Shown piece by piece: positions 22,007-35,843 of a stretch of DNA of 42,474 nt. This DNA is from Treponema sp. (GTDB lineage: Bacteria > Spirochaetota > Spirochaetia > Treponematales > Breznakiellaceae). A program made the position numbers and the translations under genes. The notes beneath the pieces are model-generated. The model saw nothing but the letters and a program-made list of their open reading frames with translations. It was not told the origin of the DNA and did not search any database. The DNA lies in NCBI GenBank assembly GCA_009784975.1, contig WQXG01000024.1:1-42474 (forward strand). The letters are read 5' to 3'. How positions within the stretch are numbered: the first letter of the stretch is position 1; every line of letters starts with the position of its first letter.

Positions 22007-23452
22007 ATGGATTATTCAGGAATGAAAGTATTGATTATGGGGCTTGGGCTTCATGGCGGGGGGCTTGCTTCCGCGCGTTTTTTTCTTAAGAAGGGAGCAG
22101 ATGTAACAGTTACCGATTTAAGAGACGAAAAAACGCTGATGCCTTCAATTACGGAATTGGACAATTCCTTAACCTCGGGAAATTCTCCAGGATCCCCCCC
22201 GCGTTACATACTTGGCAAACATGAAATTGATGATTTTAAAACCGCAGATATAGTAATAAAAAACCCCGGCGTAAGGCCGGATTCTCCCTTTCTGCAGGCT
22301 TGTAGGCGTGTGGAAACAGATATATCCCTGTTTCTCTCAGAATCCCCCGCAAGGCTTTTTGCCGTAACAGGAACAAAGGGTAAATCCGGCACAGCCTCTG
22401 CTCTCCATTGGCTTTTGTCAAAAAACAGAAAAGCCGGCAGGTCATTCCTTGGCGGCAACATAACTGTTTCTCCATTAACTTTTCTGGATGACCTTACAAA
22501 AGATGACGATGTAGTTCTGGAACTTTCAAGCTTCCAGCTTGGAGATATAAAAAACAGGCTTGACCTTTTAAAACCCGCTGCCGCAATTCTAACAACAATT
22601 ATGGCAGATCATCTTGACCGTTATAATTCAATGGAAGAATACATTGATGATAAAAGAACTATCTACCGGGGACAGGACAAAACCTGCGTAACAACGGCAG
22701 GCGATGATGACTGGGGCAGAAGTTTTCATGCCGAAACAAAAGGGCGCCCTGTTGTCTGTTCATACAAACAAATACCCCTGGATAAAAGCGGCGGCTGGAT
22801 CGATCCTTGCGGTACAGGGTTTGCCCGTTTTTTAAACTGGGAAGGTATTTCAGACGATACAACAGAACTTGTTCCCCAAAAACTTTTAACGCCGGGCTGG
22901 CATCAAAAACTAAACATGCTTTCGGCGGCGCTAACAGTATACTCACTCGGCGCGCAAGCGCAGACAATACGCGAAGCAGCCGCAGCCTACAAGGGTATTG
23001 AACATCGTCTTGAGTTTTTTCATGAAGCAAACGGGGTAAGATTTTACAACGACAGCGCAGCCACTATCCCCGAAGCCGCGGCAGCATGCATAGAAGCGCT
23101 GTGTCCCGAAAAACTAATTCTTGTAACAGGCGGCACCGATAAAAACCTTGATTTCTCCGCGCTTGCCGCCGCCGCGAAAAAAACAAAAGCCATTGTACTT
23201 TTAGACGGCACCGGCAGCGAAAAACTCGCGCGGCTTTTAGATAAAACGAACGTTTCCTACAGCGGCCCCTTTGATAATCTGGACAAGGCAGTAACCTGCG
23301 CCATAGCCAAAGCATCAAGCGGAGATACTGTAGCGCTCTCCCCCGGCTGCGCAAGTTTTGGTATGTTTTTAAATGAATTTGACCGCGGGCGAAAATGGAA
23401 AGAAGCAGTAAATAATATTTTAAACCACGAATCACGCCAAACAGCAAGTTAG
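22007..23452 (+). CDS. murD: UDP-N-acetylmuramoylalanine--D-glutamate ligase
   Basis: A 481-residue Mur ligase of cytoplasmic peptidoglycan precursor synthesis, adding D-Glu to UDP-MurNAc-L-Ala. The N-terminal domain has GLGLHGGGLASARFFLKKGA; the ATP loop is GTKGKSGT (about 122-129); ELSSFQLG, TTIMADHLDRY and GIEHRLEFFHEANGVRFYNDSAAT are MurD-typical; the C-terminal domain has LVTGGTDKNLDF and LSPGCASFGMFLNEFDRG. The family normally ends close to RKWKEAVNNIL; here nine further residues are encoded by what looks like a captured repeat. It is transcribed divergently from the DUF2804 gene. Confidence 0.95.
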   Translation: MDYSGMKVLIMGLGLHGGGLASARFFLKKGADVTVTDLRDEKTLMPSITELDNSLTSGNSPGSPPRYILGKHEIDDFKTADIVIKNPGVRPDSPFLQACRRVETDISLFLSESPARLFAVTGTKGKSGTASALHWLLSKNRKAGRSFLGGNITVSPLTFLDDLTKDDDVVLELSSFQLGDIKNRLDLLKPAAAILTTIMADHLDRYNSMEEYIDDKRTIYRGQDKTCVTTAGDDDWGRSFHAETKGRPVVCSYKQIPLDKSGGWIDPCGTGFARFLNWEGISDDTTELVPQKLLTPGWHQKLNMLSAALTVYSLGAQAQTIREAAAAYKGIEHRLEFFHEANGVRFYNDSAATIPEAAAACIEALCPEKLILVTGGTDKNLDFSALAAAAKKTKAIVLLDGTGSEKLARLLDKTNVSYSGPFDNLDKAVTCAIAKASSGDTVALSPGCASFGMFLNEFDRGRKWKEAVNNILNHESRQTAS

Positions 23453-23493
23453 TGACGTTGACATCAAAGCAAGAGTTCGTGCGGTTCGTGGTT
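23423..23493. repeat. Inverted repeat straddling the end of murD
   Basis: AACCACGAA (23423-23431) pairs with TTCGTGGTT (23485-23493) over a 53-nt interval, and the right arm is followed by a run of A. The left arm lies inside the last codons of murD. The wording (TTCGTGCGGTTCGTGGTTA) resembles a short intergenic repeat that I recall from many bacterial genomes. Confidence 0.5.
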
Positions 23494-25633: not shown

Positions 25634-27028
25634 ATGCTGTTTACCATAACCTACCGCGGACACAATACAGAAAAACTCGGCTTTTTGCTGTATAAAAACC
25701 CTTCCCGCCCGCAAAAATTTGAACTTGGGTTTGGAAATGCCTATGTTTTTTACCCTGAGCTGTCCTGCGAAAAAACAACAGCAGCCCTTCTTTTGGATAT
25801 TAACCCAATTGATCTTGCCCGCGGCAAAGATAACGCAGGCGGTTTATTTGACTATGTTAACGACCGCCCCTATGTTTCATCTTCTTTTATGAGCGTAGCA
25901 ATTTCCGGTATTTTCAGGACCGCAATGACAGGCAGGGCGGACGAACATCAGGAACTATCAGACTGCCCTCTTGATCTTGAAGCAGTTATCACAATGCTGT
26001 CGTGCAGAAGCGATACCGCAATGTTGACAAAAGTCTTTGAACCATTGGGATACGAGGTTGGCTATGAAAGTTTTACAATGGATGAGAATTTTTCTGATTG
26101 GGGAGACAGCAAATATGTTAATCTTACCCTAAAGGGAAAAATCAGGCTGCGTGACCTTCTTAAACATATCTACATTCTTATTCCGGTATTCGACAGGCAA
26201 AAACATTACTGGATCGGCAATGACGAAGTGGAAAAACTTCTGCGAAACGCGGGGGATTGGCTTTCCAGTCATCCGGAAAAAGGTTTCATTACCAGCCGTT
26301 ATCTAAAAAAGTTAAATCCATTGGTTAACATGGCTTTTTCCAGGCTTGTATCTGCCAACGAAACAGCAAAAGAAAATCAACAAGACGAAATTCCGGCAGA
26401 AATACAGGAGAAAAAACTAAACCTTAATGAACAGCGTCTTGGCAGCGTTGTTGCCGCATTAAAAAACTGCCGCGCAAGAAGCGTTATTGATATTGGCTGC
26501 GGAGAAGGAAATCTATTGCGTTCTTTAGCCAGGGAAAAACAATTTGAAAATATCGCGGGAGCGGATGTTTCCTGTCTGGCGCTTGAGAGGGCTAAAGAAA
26601 AGCTTAAAATCGGCGATAACAGAAACGAACAGCATGAAGGGCCTCGTATCAATCTGTTTCAAAGTTCTCTTACCTATAAAGATTCCAGATTCAAAGGATA
26701 CGATGCAGTTTGTATAATAGAAGTAATCGAACATTTAGATGTTTCCCGCATAACAGCTTTTGAACATATTTTGTTTGAATTCACCAAACCGCGATTTATA
26801 ATTCTGACTACGCCGAACAGGGAGTACAATATAAAATATGAACATATTAAAGAAGGCGCCTTGAGGCATAGCGATCATCGTTTTGAATGGACTCGTGATG
26901 AATTCCGCGCCTGGGCGGAAAAAACCGCCGAACGATTCGGCTATACGGTAAAGATTTCCAATATCGGAGAAATAGACAAAGATTTGGGATCATCTACACA
27001 AATGGGGGTATTTACATTAAACGAATAG
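25634..27028 (+). CDS. hen1: Hen1: 3'-terminal RNA ribose 2'-O-methyltransferase
   Basis: A 464-residue bacterial Hen1, which methylates the 2'-OH of the 3' end of a cleaved RNA before sealing, so the repaired RNA resists re-cleavage. The N-terminal half (1-245, beginning MLFTITYRGHNTEKLGFLLYKNP) is the Hen1-N domain that activates Pnkp ligase. The C-terminal half is the methyltransferase with SAM motif VIDIGCGEGN (about 283-292), metal-binding E363xxE366-H367 (EVIEH) and a downstream His (H412 or H415 in RHSDHRFEWTR). ATG 25634 follows AGTAGGT. The gene runs directly into pnkp. Confidence 0.95.
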   Translation: MLFTITYRGHNTEKLGFLLYKNPSRPQKFELGFGNAYVFYPELSCEKTTAALLLDINPIDLARGKDNAGGLFDYVNDRPYVSSSFMSVAISGIFRTAMTGRADEHQELSDCPLDLEAVITMLSCRSDTAMLTKVFEPLGYEVGYESFTMDENFSDWGDSKYVNLTLKGKIRLRDLLKHIYILIPVFDRQKHYWIGNDEVEKLLRNAGDWLSSHPEKGFITSRYLKKLNPLVNMAFSRLVSANETAKENQQDEIPAEIQEKKLNLNEQRLGSVVAALKNCRARSVIDIGCGEGNLLRSLAREKQFENIAGADVSCLALERAKEKLKIGDNRNEQHEGPRINLFQSSLTYKDSRFKGYDAVCIIEVIEHLDVSRITAFEHILFEFTKPRFIILTTPNREYNIKYEHIKEGALRHSDHRFEWTRDEFRAWAEKTAERFGYTVKISNIGEIDKDLGSSTQMGVFTLNE

Positions 27029-29574
27029 AAATCCCCGAACTTTGCGTAGTGGCTCTTGTTGGCGTATCAAGCAGCGGAAAATCCACTTTCTCAAAAGCGC
27101 ACTTTAAATCTACAGAAGTGCTTTCTTCCGATTATTTCCGCGCTCTTGTCTCGGATGACGAAAATAATCAGCAGGTAACGCAGCAGGCTTTTGACGCACT
27201 GTACTATGTAGCAAATAAACGTCTTGATTTGGGTTTATTAACCGTTATAGACGCGACAAATGTGCAAAAACACGCGCGCGCTCAAATACTGCGCCTTGCC
27301 AAAGAGCAGAATTGCCTTGCCGTTGCCATTGTGCTGAATGTCCCGGAAAAAACAATAAGGGAACGCAATGCAAATCGTCCTGACAGAAATTTAACAGGCA
27401 ATATAATATCGCGTCAGGCAGAACAGCTGCGCCAGTCAATTAATCAGCTGCAAAAAGAAGGATTCCGCTATGTACATATTCTTTCAACCATGGAAGAAAT
27501 TGCAAATGTACAAATTGTACGCACTCCATTGTGGAATAACAAAAAAGAAGAAACAGGGCCGTTTGATATAATAGGCGATATACATGGCTGTTATGATGAG
27601 TTATGCGAACTTTTAATAAAGCTTAACTATAGTGTAGATACAGAAAACTTTACTGCAAAACCGCCTGATAACCGTAAAGCCGTATTTTTGGGAGATCTTT
27701 GCGATAGAGGTCCAAAAAACATTGAAGTGCTGCGCCTTGTTATGAACATGGTATACGCAAAAGACGCATGGTGTACGGCAGGCAACCATGATTTTAAACT
27801 GTTAAAAAAATTAAACGGCAAAAATGTGCAGCTAACGCACGGGCTGGATAAAACTGTTGAACAGCTTGAGCTGCAAACAAAAGATTTTAAAGAAAAGGTA
27901 AAAAACTTTATTGATACTCTTATCAGCCATTATGTATTTGACGGCGGCAGGCTTGTTGTTTCCCATGCGGGACTTAAGGAAAAGTATCAGGGACGCAGTT
28001 CGGGGCGTGTAAGGGAATTTTGCCTTTATGGGGAGACAACAGGTGAGACAGACGAATACGGACTGCCTGTAAGATTACCATGGGCAAATGAATACAGGGG
28101 AAAAGCGTTTGTAGTTTACGGGCATATCCCCAATCCGGAAGTTTTAACCGTTAACAATACCGCCTGTATTGATACCGGCTGCGTATTCGGCGGAAAATTA
28201 ACAGCATTCCGTTACCCGGAAAAAGAAATTGTACAGGTAAAAGCAAAACAAATATATTATGCTTCTGTAAAACCATTTCTTGACACATCGGGCGCTAACA
28301 ATTATTTATTGAACATAGATGATGTAACAGGGCAAAGATTTTTAAATACCGCATCCTTTGGATACAAACTGCGCCGGTCTATCAAAATAAACGAAGAAAA
28401 TTCCGCTGCCGCCCTGGAAATTATGAGCCGGTTTGCAGCAGATCCCCGCTGGCTTATCTATTTGCCGCCGACAATGTCACCATGTGAAACGAGCAATAAA
28501 CCGGACTATCTGGAATACCCGGCAGAAGCGTTTGATTATTACAAAACACGCGGTATCGGCAGAATAATCTGCGAAGAAAAACACATGGGCTCCCGCGCTG
28601 TGATTGTGCTTTGCAAAGACAGCGAAACAGCGGCTAAACGTTTTGGCGTTTGTGATAACAGTTTCGGTATTATCTACACCCGTACCGGAAGATCATTTTT
28701 TGATGAAACAGCATCCGAAAATTCAATTTTAACCCGCCTTGTTAATATATTGTCTGCCTCTTCATTCTGGAGCGATTTTAACACAGACTGGGTCTGCATT
28801 GACGCAGAGCTCATGCCGTGGTCTGCAAAAGCCGCGGCTCTTTTAAAAGAACAATATGCCCCTGTAAGCCGCGCCGGCAGAAACGCGCTTGAAATGGCAG
28901 CTAACGCTGTAAAAAACGCTTTGTCTGCGCTTGACGGCAAACAGTCAGACGGCAGTATCGATCTTAACGAACTATTGGAAAAATACACAAAACGCAAAGA
29001 AGCGCTTTCTCTTTACACAGACGCTTACCGCCGATATTGCTGGAATGTAAATAATATAGACGATTACCGCATTGCGCCTTTTCATATCCTTGCCACTGAG
29101 GGAAAAACCTGGAACAGCGAAAATCATCTTGTTCACATGGAATGTATTAAAAAATACATGACAGACGGTTCGATCTTCATGGCAACCAATTATACAGAAG
29201 TTGATCTTCTGGACGAAAACAGCATATCAGCCGGTATAAAATGGTGGGAAGATCTTACAAATACAGGCGGCGAGGGCATGGTTGTTAAACCCATCGATTT
29301 TATTCCGATGAAAGGAACAGAGCTTTTACAGCCTGCGGTTAAATGCCGCGGACGCGAATATCTTCGAATTATCTATGGTCCGGAATACCTTTTAAACCTT
29401 GCAAGGCTTAAAAAACGCAACCTTGGCAAAAAACGCAACCTTGCCTTAAACGAATTTGCGCTTGGAATGGAAGCTCTGGAACGCTTTGTTAAAAACGAAC
29501 CTCTTTACAGGGTGCACGAATGCGTATTTGGAATATTATCTCTGGAAAGCGAACCTGTAGACCCAAGATTGTAA
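27016..29574 (+). CDS. pnkp: Polynucleotide kinase-phosphatase-ligase Pnkp (RNA repair)
   Basis: A trifunctional RNA end-healing and sealing enzyme, 852 residues if started at ATT 27016. 5'-kinase domain with P-loop GVSSSGKST (16-24). 2',3'-phosphatase of the calcineurin class with GDIHG (187-191), GDLCDRG, GNHD (256-259), SHAG and YGHIPNP. C-terminal adenylyltransferase/ligase with nucleophile K522 in EEKHMGSRA and EGMVVKP (753-759). GTG 27049 is the first conventional start in the open frame but would remove the strand before the P-loop; family proteins begin with an IPEL-hydrophobic stretch, seen here only upstream (IEIPELCVVALVG). ATT 27016 lies 7 nt after GGGGG and overlaps the hen1 end by 13 nt. 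Confidence 0.95.
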   Translation: MKRIEIPELCVVALVGVSSSGKSTFSKAHFKSTEVLSSDYFRALVSDDENNQQVTQQAFDALYYVANKRLDLGLLTVIDATNVQKHARAQILRLAKEQNCLAVAIVLNVPEKTIRERNANRPDRNLTGNIISRQAEQLRQSINQLQKEGFRYVHILSTMEEIANVQIVRTPLWNNKKEETGPFDIIGDIHGCYDELCELLIKLNYSVDTENFTAKPPDNRKAVFLGDLCDRGPKNIEVLRLVMNMVYAKDAWCTAGNHDFKLLKKLNGKNVQLTHGLDKTVEQLELQTKDFKEKVKNFIDTLISHYVFDGGRLVVSHAGLKEKYQGRSSGRVREFCLYGETTGETDEYGLPVRLPWANEYRGKAFVVYGHIPNPEVLTVNNTACIDTGCVFGGKLTAFRYPEKEIVQVKAKQIYYASVKPFLDTSGANNYLLNIDDVTGQRFLNTASFGYKLRRSIKINEENSAAALEIMSRFAADPRWLIYLPPTMSPCETSNKPDYLEYPAEAFDYYKTRGIGRIICEEKHMGSRAVIVLCKDSETAAKRFGVCDNSFGIIYTRTGRSFFDETASENSILTRLVNILSASSFWSDFNTDWVCIDAELMPWSAKAAALLKEQYAPVSRAGRNALEMAANAVKNALSALDGKQSDGSIDLNELLEKYTKRKEALSLYTDAYRRYCWNVNNIDDYRIAPFHILATEGKTWNSENHLVHMECIKKYMTDGSIFMATNYTEVDLLDENSISAGIKWWEDLTNTGGEGMVVKPIDFIPMKGTELLQPAVKCRGREYLRIIYGPEYLLNLARLKKRNLGKKRNLALNEFALGMEALERFVKNEPLYRVHECVFGILSLESEPVDPRL

Positions 29575-34300: not shown

Positions 34301-35167
34301 TTAAGGTTCCCTAATCACAACAAACCCTGCCGCTCCAATGCTGTAATCTTCCTGCTCCTCCCAGCAGGCAAAAAGGCTCTTCCCCGCCCGAGCTATCTCT
34401 GTATACACAAAACCTTCGGGCAGAGGCGGCAGGGAAGGATGGGAAATTTCTCCCCTGCGAAAAGCCGAATTAAAAAAAACTTCTGCGGAAATTGCTTCGC
34501 CTGCCTGTTCAAGATTTGCTGTACGGAACATTAACGCAGAAAGCGTCCTATTAACAACTCTGTAATATATTAAACCATCGCTGCCGTAACGAAGAGTATC
34601 CGCTTCCCAGCCATCTTCCTGCGGAAATTGCCGCAAAACAGGAATCTCTATCGGAAAGGCAGTATTTGAATCCATGTTGAATGACCATGTTCTTTGGCGC
34701 GGCTGCATAAGGTCTGTAGTTAAAAAACGGTTATCCCTGTAAAGAAGAGCGGCAGGTTTATCATCGTAAAAAACAAACCCTCCTACCGTATAATGCTGCC
34801 AGATTTCATTTTCAAAAAAACGGTACATTACAAGGTCTTCTTCATGGTTAGGCGAAATTTTAAAAAAACCGTTACGGTTTATAGTCATTATAAGTTCATC
34901 ATTTTTTTTCTGTAAAAAACGAATATGTAAAGCATAGGGCCAGGGCACAAAAGCCGTGGTAAAAACGACATCTTCGATTGATTCAATATGAACGGGACCA
35001 TTTTCAGAAAGCAAAAACCAAAGCGGATACTCCCCCGTCTGCAAAATTGCCATAGCTCTCGCCCCGCGCTGTACAACAGTATCCTCAGCCGCTGTGCCTC
35101 TTGTACAGGATATAATGATAAAAACACATATCAATATTAACCACGTGGTAAAATTTCTTATTTTAAT
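34301..35167 (-). CDS. Lipoprotein of unknown function, probable ATT start
   Basis: A 288-residue protein if started at ATT 35167: residues 2-21 then read KIRNFTTWLILICVFIIISC, a textbook lipoprotein signal with Lys/Arg n-region and Cys21 in a lipobox-like IISC. The first conventional start, TTG 35134, leaves only nine residues before the Cys and no positive n-region. ATT 35167 is 6 nt after a full GGAGG (35174-35178) and overlaps the ispD stop. The mature protein is beta-rich, with many Trp/Phe/Tyr and WD40-like short repeats (DGLIYYRVVNRT, DNRFLTTDLM); no family is recognised. It lies directly downstream of carD-ispD and is co-transcribed. Confidence 0.72.
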   Translation of the reverse strand: MKIRNFTTWLILICVFIIISCTRGTAAEDTVVQRGARAMAILQTGEYPLWFLLSENGPVHIESIEDVVFTTAFVPWPYALHIRFLQKKNDELIMTINRNGFFKISPNHEEDLVMYRFFENEIWQHYTVGGFVFYDDKPAALLYRDNRFLTTDLMQPRQRTWSFNMDSNTAFPIEIPVLRQFPQEDGWEADTLRYGSDGLIYYRVVNRTLSALMFRTANLEQAGEAISAEVFFNSAFRRGEISHPSLPPLPEGFVYTEIARAGKSLFACWEEQEDYSIGAAGFVVIREP

Positions 35168-35843
35168 TTAGATCCTCCGGGAAGGTTATTTTTTTATTAT
35201 CCTGCTCTCCGGGGATAACCGCAACCTGCCCTATAAATCTGCCCCAAATCTCCGCATCATCTGTAAACTCTTCATCAGTTTTATTTGCCGCTTTTTCATG
35301 AGCTTGTAAAATTTCAGGATACTTAAACGCCTGAGGCGTCTGCGCAAACCCAACGTTTGCCCTCTTTAAATGCGATATAATAAACCCCTCTGCCCCGCCG
35401 TCAATTTCCTTGGGAGTATCCGTAACAGGAAGAAGCGGGATAACAGCGCCGTGTTTTTTTACAGCGCCGATTATATTTTCAATGAGAGGCACGCTGACCC
35501 ATGGTCTTGCTCCGTCATGAATTAATACATAACATGGATTAAAAGGCGCAAGAGCACAAAGCGCATTATACACGGAAGCGCGCCTTGTTTCTCCTCCGAT
35601 AACAAATATAATTTTTTTATCAGACGAAAACAATTCAGGCGCAAGGGCGCTGCGAGCGGCAGCTTCAGCGTCTTTTGGAACAACAATTACAATTATTTTA
35701 ACAGATGCAGCCGCAAAAAAAGCGCTGACAGCAGAACCAAGCACTGTAAGATTATTTTTTAGCAATTGAAATTCTTTTTTTATCCCGCCCATGCGCGATG
35801 ATGATCCTGCAGCCAGGATAACAGCGGCGGCACAGTTATTCAA
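35163..35843 (-). CDS. ispD: 2-C-methyl-D-erythritol 4-phosphate cytidylyltransferase
   Basis: A 226-residue IspD of the MEP isoprenoid pathway, transferring CMP to methylerythritol phosphate. VILAAGSSSRMGG (about 8-20) is the nucleotide loop; VIGGETRRASVYNAL, YVLIHDGARPWVS and LPVTDTPKEI are family signatures. The usual PKQ after the loop reads KKEFQ. The start is TTG 35843, overlapping the carD stop by 8 nt, so it is translationally coupled. CarD-IspD adjacency is a recurrent arrangement in several bacterial groups including spirochaetes. Confidence 0.94.
   Translation of the reverse strand: MNNCAAAVILAAGSSSRMGGIKKEFQLLKNNLTVLGSAVSAFFAAASVKIIVIVVPKDAEAAARSALAPELFSSDKKIIFVIGGETRRASVYNALCALAPFNPCYVLIHDGARPWVSVPLIENIIGAVKKHGAVIPLLPVTDTPKEIDGGAEGFIISHLKRANVGFAQTPQAFKYPEILQAHEKAANKTDEEFTDDAEIWGRFIGQVAVIPGEQDNKKITFPEDLN

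Follow-up and report, generated by a model that had tools for sequence, protein, structure and literature searches.

Known AUU starts and short gene overlaps

AUU start codons are rare, and gene finders that use ATG, GTG and TTG cannot place them. Closest to the locus described here are the short phase-1 overlaps ATTAA, ATTAG and ATTGA with an ATT start, for which a rule has been drawn from the genetic code (PMC3887535, PMC2542354). The same arrangement is found between ispD and a downstream lipoprotein gene in a Treponema draft genome (2.6 Mb, 73 contigs): two genes on one strand overlap by 5 nt in a way that rules out ATG, GTG and TTG and makes ATT necessary. The relevant parts of the two papers offer the code rule and a count of rare annotated cases, whereas here one junction can be compared across orthologues of either register, with a second species in the same state.

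Several individual genes are also comparable. In Escherichia coli, infC and pcnB use AUU (PMC1780047); they share with our locus the start codon and the weak initiation expected of it. As presented in that source, however, AUU limits or autoregulates their expression, by experiment, while here it goes together with an overlap in which NTG cannot occur. Unlike its E. coli counterpart, infC in the order of the analysed species uses TTG. Staphylococcus aureus starts cvfC1 with AUU and ccpN with AUA, and the non-canonical starts tested there reached ~10 % of AUG in RPMI medium (PMC13009471). These genes resemble ours in having a non-canonical start after a strong Shine-Dalgarno (SD) sequence, and cvfC1 is conserved among staphylococci; in the sections relevant here they were demonstrated by ribosome profiling and reporters, and cvfC1 is the first gene of its operon, whereas our case is built from sequence. 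Among spirochetes, an AUU start was proposed from sequence for Borrelia burgdorferi lepA, which needs it for full length (PMC1780047); this is a different gene, and the PMC1780047 passage on it mentions no overlap. Finally, Streptomyces sigR has a GTC start with IF3 repression shown by experiment and, as far as the relevant part of the source goes, is similar in its rare start, strong conserved SD and adjoining partner gene, and different in its codon (PMC5472188).

A literature search of partial coverage turned up no publication dealing with AUU initiation in Treponema of termite guts. What the present junction contributes is a comparatively supported, putative AUU start in a short phase-1 overlap; the overlap rule itself is already in print, and overlap cases with comparative support seem few in the literature examined.

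Structure of the ispD–lipoprotein junction

The window, by which we mean the whole 42,474-nt stretch of DNA analysed, carries ispD on the minus strand (35163..35843; Pfam IspD, E=1.6e-45), followed by an ORF of 288 codons plus stop that opens with ATT (34301..35167, minus strand) and matched no family in Pfam and NCBIfam profile searches. The 3′ end of ispD reads ...GAG GAT CTA AAT TAA (minus strand), with the TAA stop at 35165-35163. The putative AUU start of the lipoprotein gene (ATT, 35165..35167, minus strand) has one T in common with this stop, so that the last base of the start is the first base of the stop and the two genes form a 5-nt, short phase-1 same-strand overlap, ATTAA (35163..35167, minus strand). 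Within the ispD end lies a perfect GGAGG (35174..35178, minus strand), and many orthologues likewise have GGAGGA at their junction. The spacer between GGAGG (35178-35174) and ATT (35167-35165) is 6 nt, an SD distance appropriate to AUU-initiated genes. In the lipoprotein frame the codon preceding ATT is TAA, so no start upstream of ATT is possible. Codon 3, an AUA at a distance of 12 nt from GGAGG, is also a near-cognate and counts against the AUU reading. No Rfam match was returned within the window, and four 90-nt folds revealed no notable RNA structure around the start (z -1.24 to 1.50).

Read from ATT as Met, the translation opens MKIRNFTTWLILICVFIIISC, with a cysteine at position 21. The putative signal peptide IKIRNFTTWLILICVFIIIS (35108..35167, minus strand) precedes this lipobox cysteine, and the N-terminus has the basic n-region, hydrophobic core and lipobox with conserved cysteine that would be expected of a bacterial lipoprotein. 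Cys 21 is invariant in alignment A1 (11 rows) and falls in a column of at least 90 % in alignment A2 (18 rows). The sole conventional start ahead of the cysteine in the analysed genome, which is also the nearest, is TTG 35134 (35132..35134, minus strand), for which no SD was seen; translation from it gives MICVFIIISC, with the cysteine at position 10 and the basic n-region missing. The original prediction, namely an ATT 6 nt past GGAGG that yields a complete lipoprotein signal peptide, and a TTG that yields a crippled one, was therefore borne out in its anatomy. A conventional gene call at this position would give a truncated protein without a signal peptide.

Orthologues of the lipoprotein gene

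We searched 39 genomes of the genus, including the analysed one, and found the gene in 30. Twenty-nine copies were read (our own plus 28); L023, cut by a contig end, was left out. The relatives are Treponema MAGs, presumably of termite-gut origin, judging from their sample codes. Twenty-seven of the 29 copies offer a conventional start upstream of the cysteine by at least 15 residues. The exceptions are the analysed genome and genome G059 (locus L220), where the longest conventional distance to the cysteine is 10 and 6, respectively; both carry ATT after GGAGGA, 21 (own) and 19 (G059) residues from the cysteine. Across these 29 copies, then, the lipoprotein gene of the analysed genome appears to have no ATG, GTG or TTG that gives a functional N-terminus, and AUU is present in a relative at the same place. 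The relative's locus, L220, is the same as L098 (WQWD01000166.1, Treponema MAG Emb289P1bin65), and its lipoprotein reads MKKFCYVFFVICYLMFLSC from ATT. In G012 and G008, two other species, the ATT at this position is accompanied by an ATG within an inserted stretch; because the insert supplies an ATG, these species are no evidence for ATT use, and their ATT may be unused. The comparison, with conventional starts in 27 copies and ATT in the other two, supports the predicted AUU as the probable start of the lipoprotein gene.

Overlap register and start codon choice

ispD was readable at 24 of the 29 junctions. Relative to ispD, the lipoprotein frame is in register 2 at 19 junctions and in register 1 at five, the calls for the analysed genome and G059 being ORF frames read from draft assemblies. 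Most register 2 junctions (15/19) have a TGA stop that makes ATGA or TTGA; the remaining 4/19 end ispD with TAA and have their conventional start a few codons downstream. Of the five register 1 junctions, four have ATT and one has CTT with an ATG further on; all four ATT species sit in this register. Here the third base of the start coincides with the opening base of the stop, invariably T, and ATG, GTG and TTG are therefore impossible. This exclusion by the ispD stop was absent from the original prediction. Among codons ending in T, just AUU differs from AUG once, making it the only single-mismatch option.

The tree was built on IspD plus the mature lipoprotein (24 rows), with 12 of its 21 inner branches drawn open. 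The ATT label has to change four times on it, and well supported branches make at least three of these changes unavoidable, suggesting that ATT arose or was lost repeatedly. The analysed species groups with G011 (ATG) and G059 (ATT) at a support of 90/97, and G011 groups with G059 at 100/99.

Our preferred reading, to which we assign a probability of about 0.82, is that the lipoprotein gene is translated from AUU and that this codon is used because the start shares a base with the ispD stop. From the anatomy, homology and register of the junction we infer initiation itself, its efficiency and its coupling to ispD. A ribosome ending ispD, or a 30S subunit on the GGAGG within the ispD end, would place the AUU, 6 nt downstream, in the P site, where fMet-tRNA would initiate at reduced efficiency. 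In most relatives the overlap is ATGA or TTGA, which would make an ATG or TTG start possible; in the analysed species the frame lies in the ATTAA register, and the start would have to end in the T of the stop, leaving no NTG. The well-spaced GGAGG, and perhaps the AAA second codon, may aid initiation on AUU. The outcome would be modest lipoprotein synthesis coupled to ispD. AUU is expected to be weak because IF3 is ordinary, and a loss like that in S. aureus, if it applies here, would mean a low lipoprotein dose tied to ispD.

A broader proposal can be put forward tentatively, and we hold it with more doubt than belief: that at one junction of one Treponema genus the register shifted several times, that AUU was repeatedly adopted at the same SD where NTG was forbidden, and that phase-1 ATTAA overlaps, held to be near-absent since annotation is blind to them, would thus genuinely and repeatedly give rise to AUU starts that set a low downstream dose. 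Similar junctions can be searched for in other genomes for overlooked starts, and the series of ATG, TTG and ATT at one place is material for asking how start strength evolves.

Candidate AUU starts elsewhere in the genome

The original prediction also proposed that this lineage may use AUU more freely or as regulation. Three AUU candidates in our sample, along with one CTG and one ATC case in genome G020, lean towards a relaxed initiation in which AUU and other near-cognates are widely used. The sample comprised 842,474 bases of the analysed genome, set beside 1.6 Mb of G020, with genes called by a simple codon-usage script; the three candidates stand among its 539 called genes, two of the three having been chosen by the original prediction.

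The second candidate, pnkp, held up as a likely AUU gene. Its probable start (ATT, 27016..27018, plus strand) follows an SD-like GGGGG (27004..27008, plus strand) by 7 nt, and the alignment to the NCBIfam Pnkp model TIGR04075 (851 positions), which begins at position 12 with a GTG start, begins at position 2 with ATT. Relatives with an N-terminus have ATG in 9/9 cases, the nearest ones one codon further on, and two have a few extra codons after the ATG; L040 is without an N-terminus, and L042 was read out of frame, with an ATG seen in the upstream text. The gene belongs to a hen1 and pnkp RNA-repair pair (window 25634-29574), its ATT falls inside the end of hen1 (stop 27026-27028), and it is present in 11 of the 59 genomes searched, our own included.

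The third candidate came from a comparison of 324 gene pairs with G020, which flagged 24 of our own and 28 G020 entries, most of them leader or antisense alignments, sorted by eye. It is a MalT-like gene on contig 3 (name by reading) with GGAGGTGACAGC ATT. At three homologous loci of G019 and G015, GGAGGT and ATG stand at the same distance as the contig-3 ATT. In the contig-3 gene some twelve additional codons precede the conserved region, and the GTG that lies six codons past ATT is an alternative start. The second codon is AAA in all three candidates; AAA is also the commonest after conventional starts (47/148).

The counts do not indicate a general habit. Genome-wide, SD-placed ATTAA (GGAGG N4-8 ATTAA) was not enriched, with 24 matches vs 34 for the reversed control pattern. 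We inspected 23 of the 24 for ORFs, leaving out one overlapping duplicate; by reading, only the lipoprotein gene and the contig-3 gene exceed 200 codons with no nearer or upstream conventional start. Two other matches are L254, which six codons downstream has an ATG of its own, and L271, an ORF of 82 codons lacking a conventional start. Near-cognates (ATT, ATA, ATC, CTG) after orphan SDs were likewise not enriched, at 4/24 in the analysed genome vs ~2.5 expected and 4/53 in G020 vs ~5.8, under a filter that leaves out the contig-3 gene on account of its GTG; the two ATT among our own four are the lipoprotein gene and pnkp. A first version of the orphan-SD count gave ATT at 4/379, not above background. 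No AUU-like start was seen for infC, which has TTG in 28 of 30 loci, the other two being unreadable. Nor did IF3 carry a signature of laxity: the protein of the analysed genome departs from no column at least 85 % conserved in 27 relatives. We infer from the pattern count, the orphan-SD count, the TTG of infC and the ordinary IF3 that AUU starts are few in the analysed genome. A general AUU habit was rejected on these grounds, and a relaxation of initiation across the lineage is unlikely. Even so, three candidates are a notable number, given that PMC1780047, in the part concerned, knew of two AUU genes with proof, both from E. coli.

Alternative readings of the junction

Slightly less probable than a lineage-wide relaxation of initiation, and in our judgement improbable, is the reading that the gene is losing expression, its start having been lost when the ispD stop changed from TGA to TAA, with AUU merely a leaky remainder. 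The change from TTGA to TTAA is single and silent for ispD, the four relatives with TAA in the common register initiate elsewhere, and a possible palindrome remnant hints at local rearrangement. Yet the reading frame opened by ATT is unbroken, the ORF shares 50-58 % identity with ten relatives, the GGAGG is kept, and a second species is in the same ATT state. A silent gene is a further possibility that weighs against the AUU reading, although an intact, conserved ORF makes it less likely.

It is very improbable that the gene simply starts at TTG 35134, which would leave the protein with a minimal signal sequence or with no signal at all. TTG does serve as an ordinary start codon in the analysed genome (9/148 SD-led starts, and infC), and a strong SD is missing in 351 of the 539 called genes, but from this TTG just nine residues precede the cysteine, none of them basic, whereas the longest conventional distance is never below 15 in the 27 copies with a usable start; starting from the first TTG in the second ATT species, no more than five residues would precede the cysteine. 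Least probable of the four is a sequencing or assembly error, or a strain-level mutation, that masks a conventional start: the genome is a 73-contig draft, a second assembly of the same species was not seen and drafts can show oddities such as the lone ATC of G020 rplK, but the same ATT stands in a second, separately assembled species, altering the shared T would deprive ispD of this stop and lengthen it by 25 codons, and in a comparison with G020 0 of 254 ORFs of the analysed genome are broken, vs 3 in G020 itself.

Two other ideas were rejected. An ispD–lipoprotein frameshift fusion is at odds with the TAA that immediately precedes ATT in the lipoprotein frame, and the signal peptide would end up inside the fused protein. 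Autoregulation of the infC type does not fit a lipoprotein gene, and infC itself starts with TTG.

Repeats near the start and possible near-cognate starts in G020

A palindromic repeat, ACCACGAAC...GTTCGTGGT, is frequent in the analysed genome and occurs in the window at 23424-23492 and, as a possible remnant, at 35140-35149. Half-copies number 22 in 842 kb, 21 of them outside called genes, with 5.0 expected from shuffles; G020 has 1 vs 9.25 expected. A repeat subfamily with the fixed core GCCTAGAAACTTCGTTGGCA (L080, L085, L091 and others) has seven copies in our 842 kb and 0 in the 1.6 Mb of G020. Several orthologues of the lipoprotein gene (L006, L014, L017) have in-frame inserts just past the start, of differing unit types and with ATG, GTG or TTG inside. 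The sequence ACCACGTGGT (35140..35149, minus strand) may be a remnant of the palindromic repeat standing there in some orthologues. It is no more than possible that ATT originated through a palindromic insert losing the start codon it carried, since no insert is seen in the second ATT species.

In G020, the gene for ribosomal protein L11 (rplK; L223, contig 5, ~90408) opens with ATC, while all 23 others among the 24 readable loci begin with ATG (6/30 unreadable); this is either an error or a real near-cognate start. A possible CTG start lies on G020 contig 14 (~36300, minus strand), where GGAGGT is followed by CTG GAA AAA and the counterpart in the analysed genome reads ATG GAA AAA.
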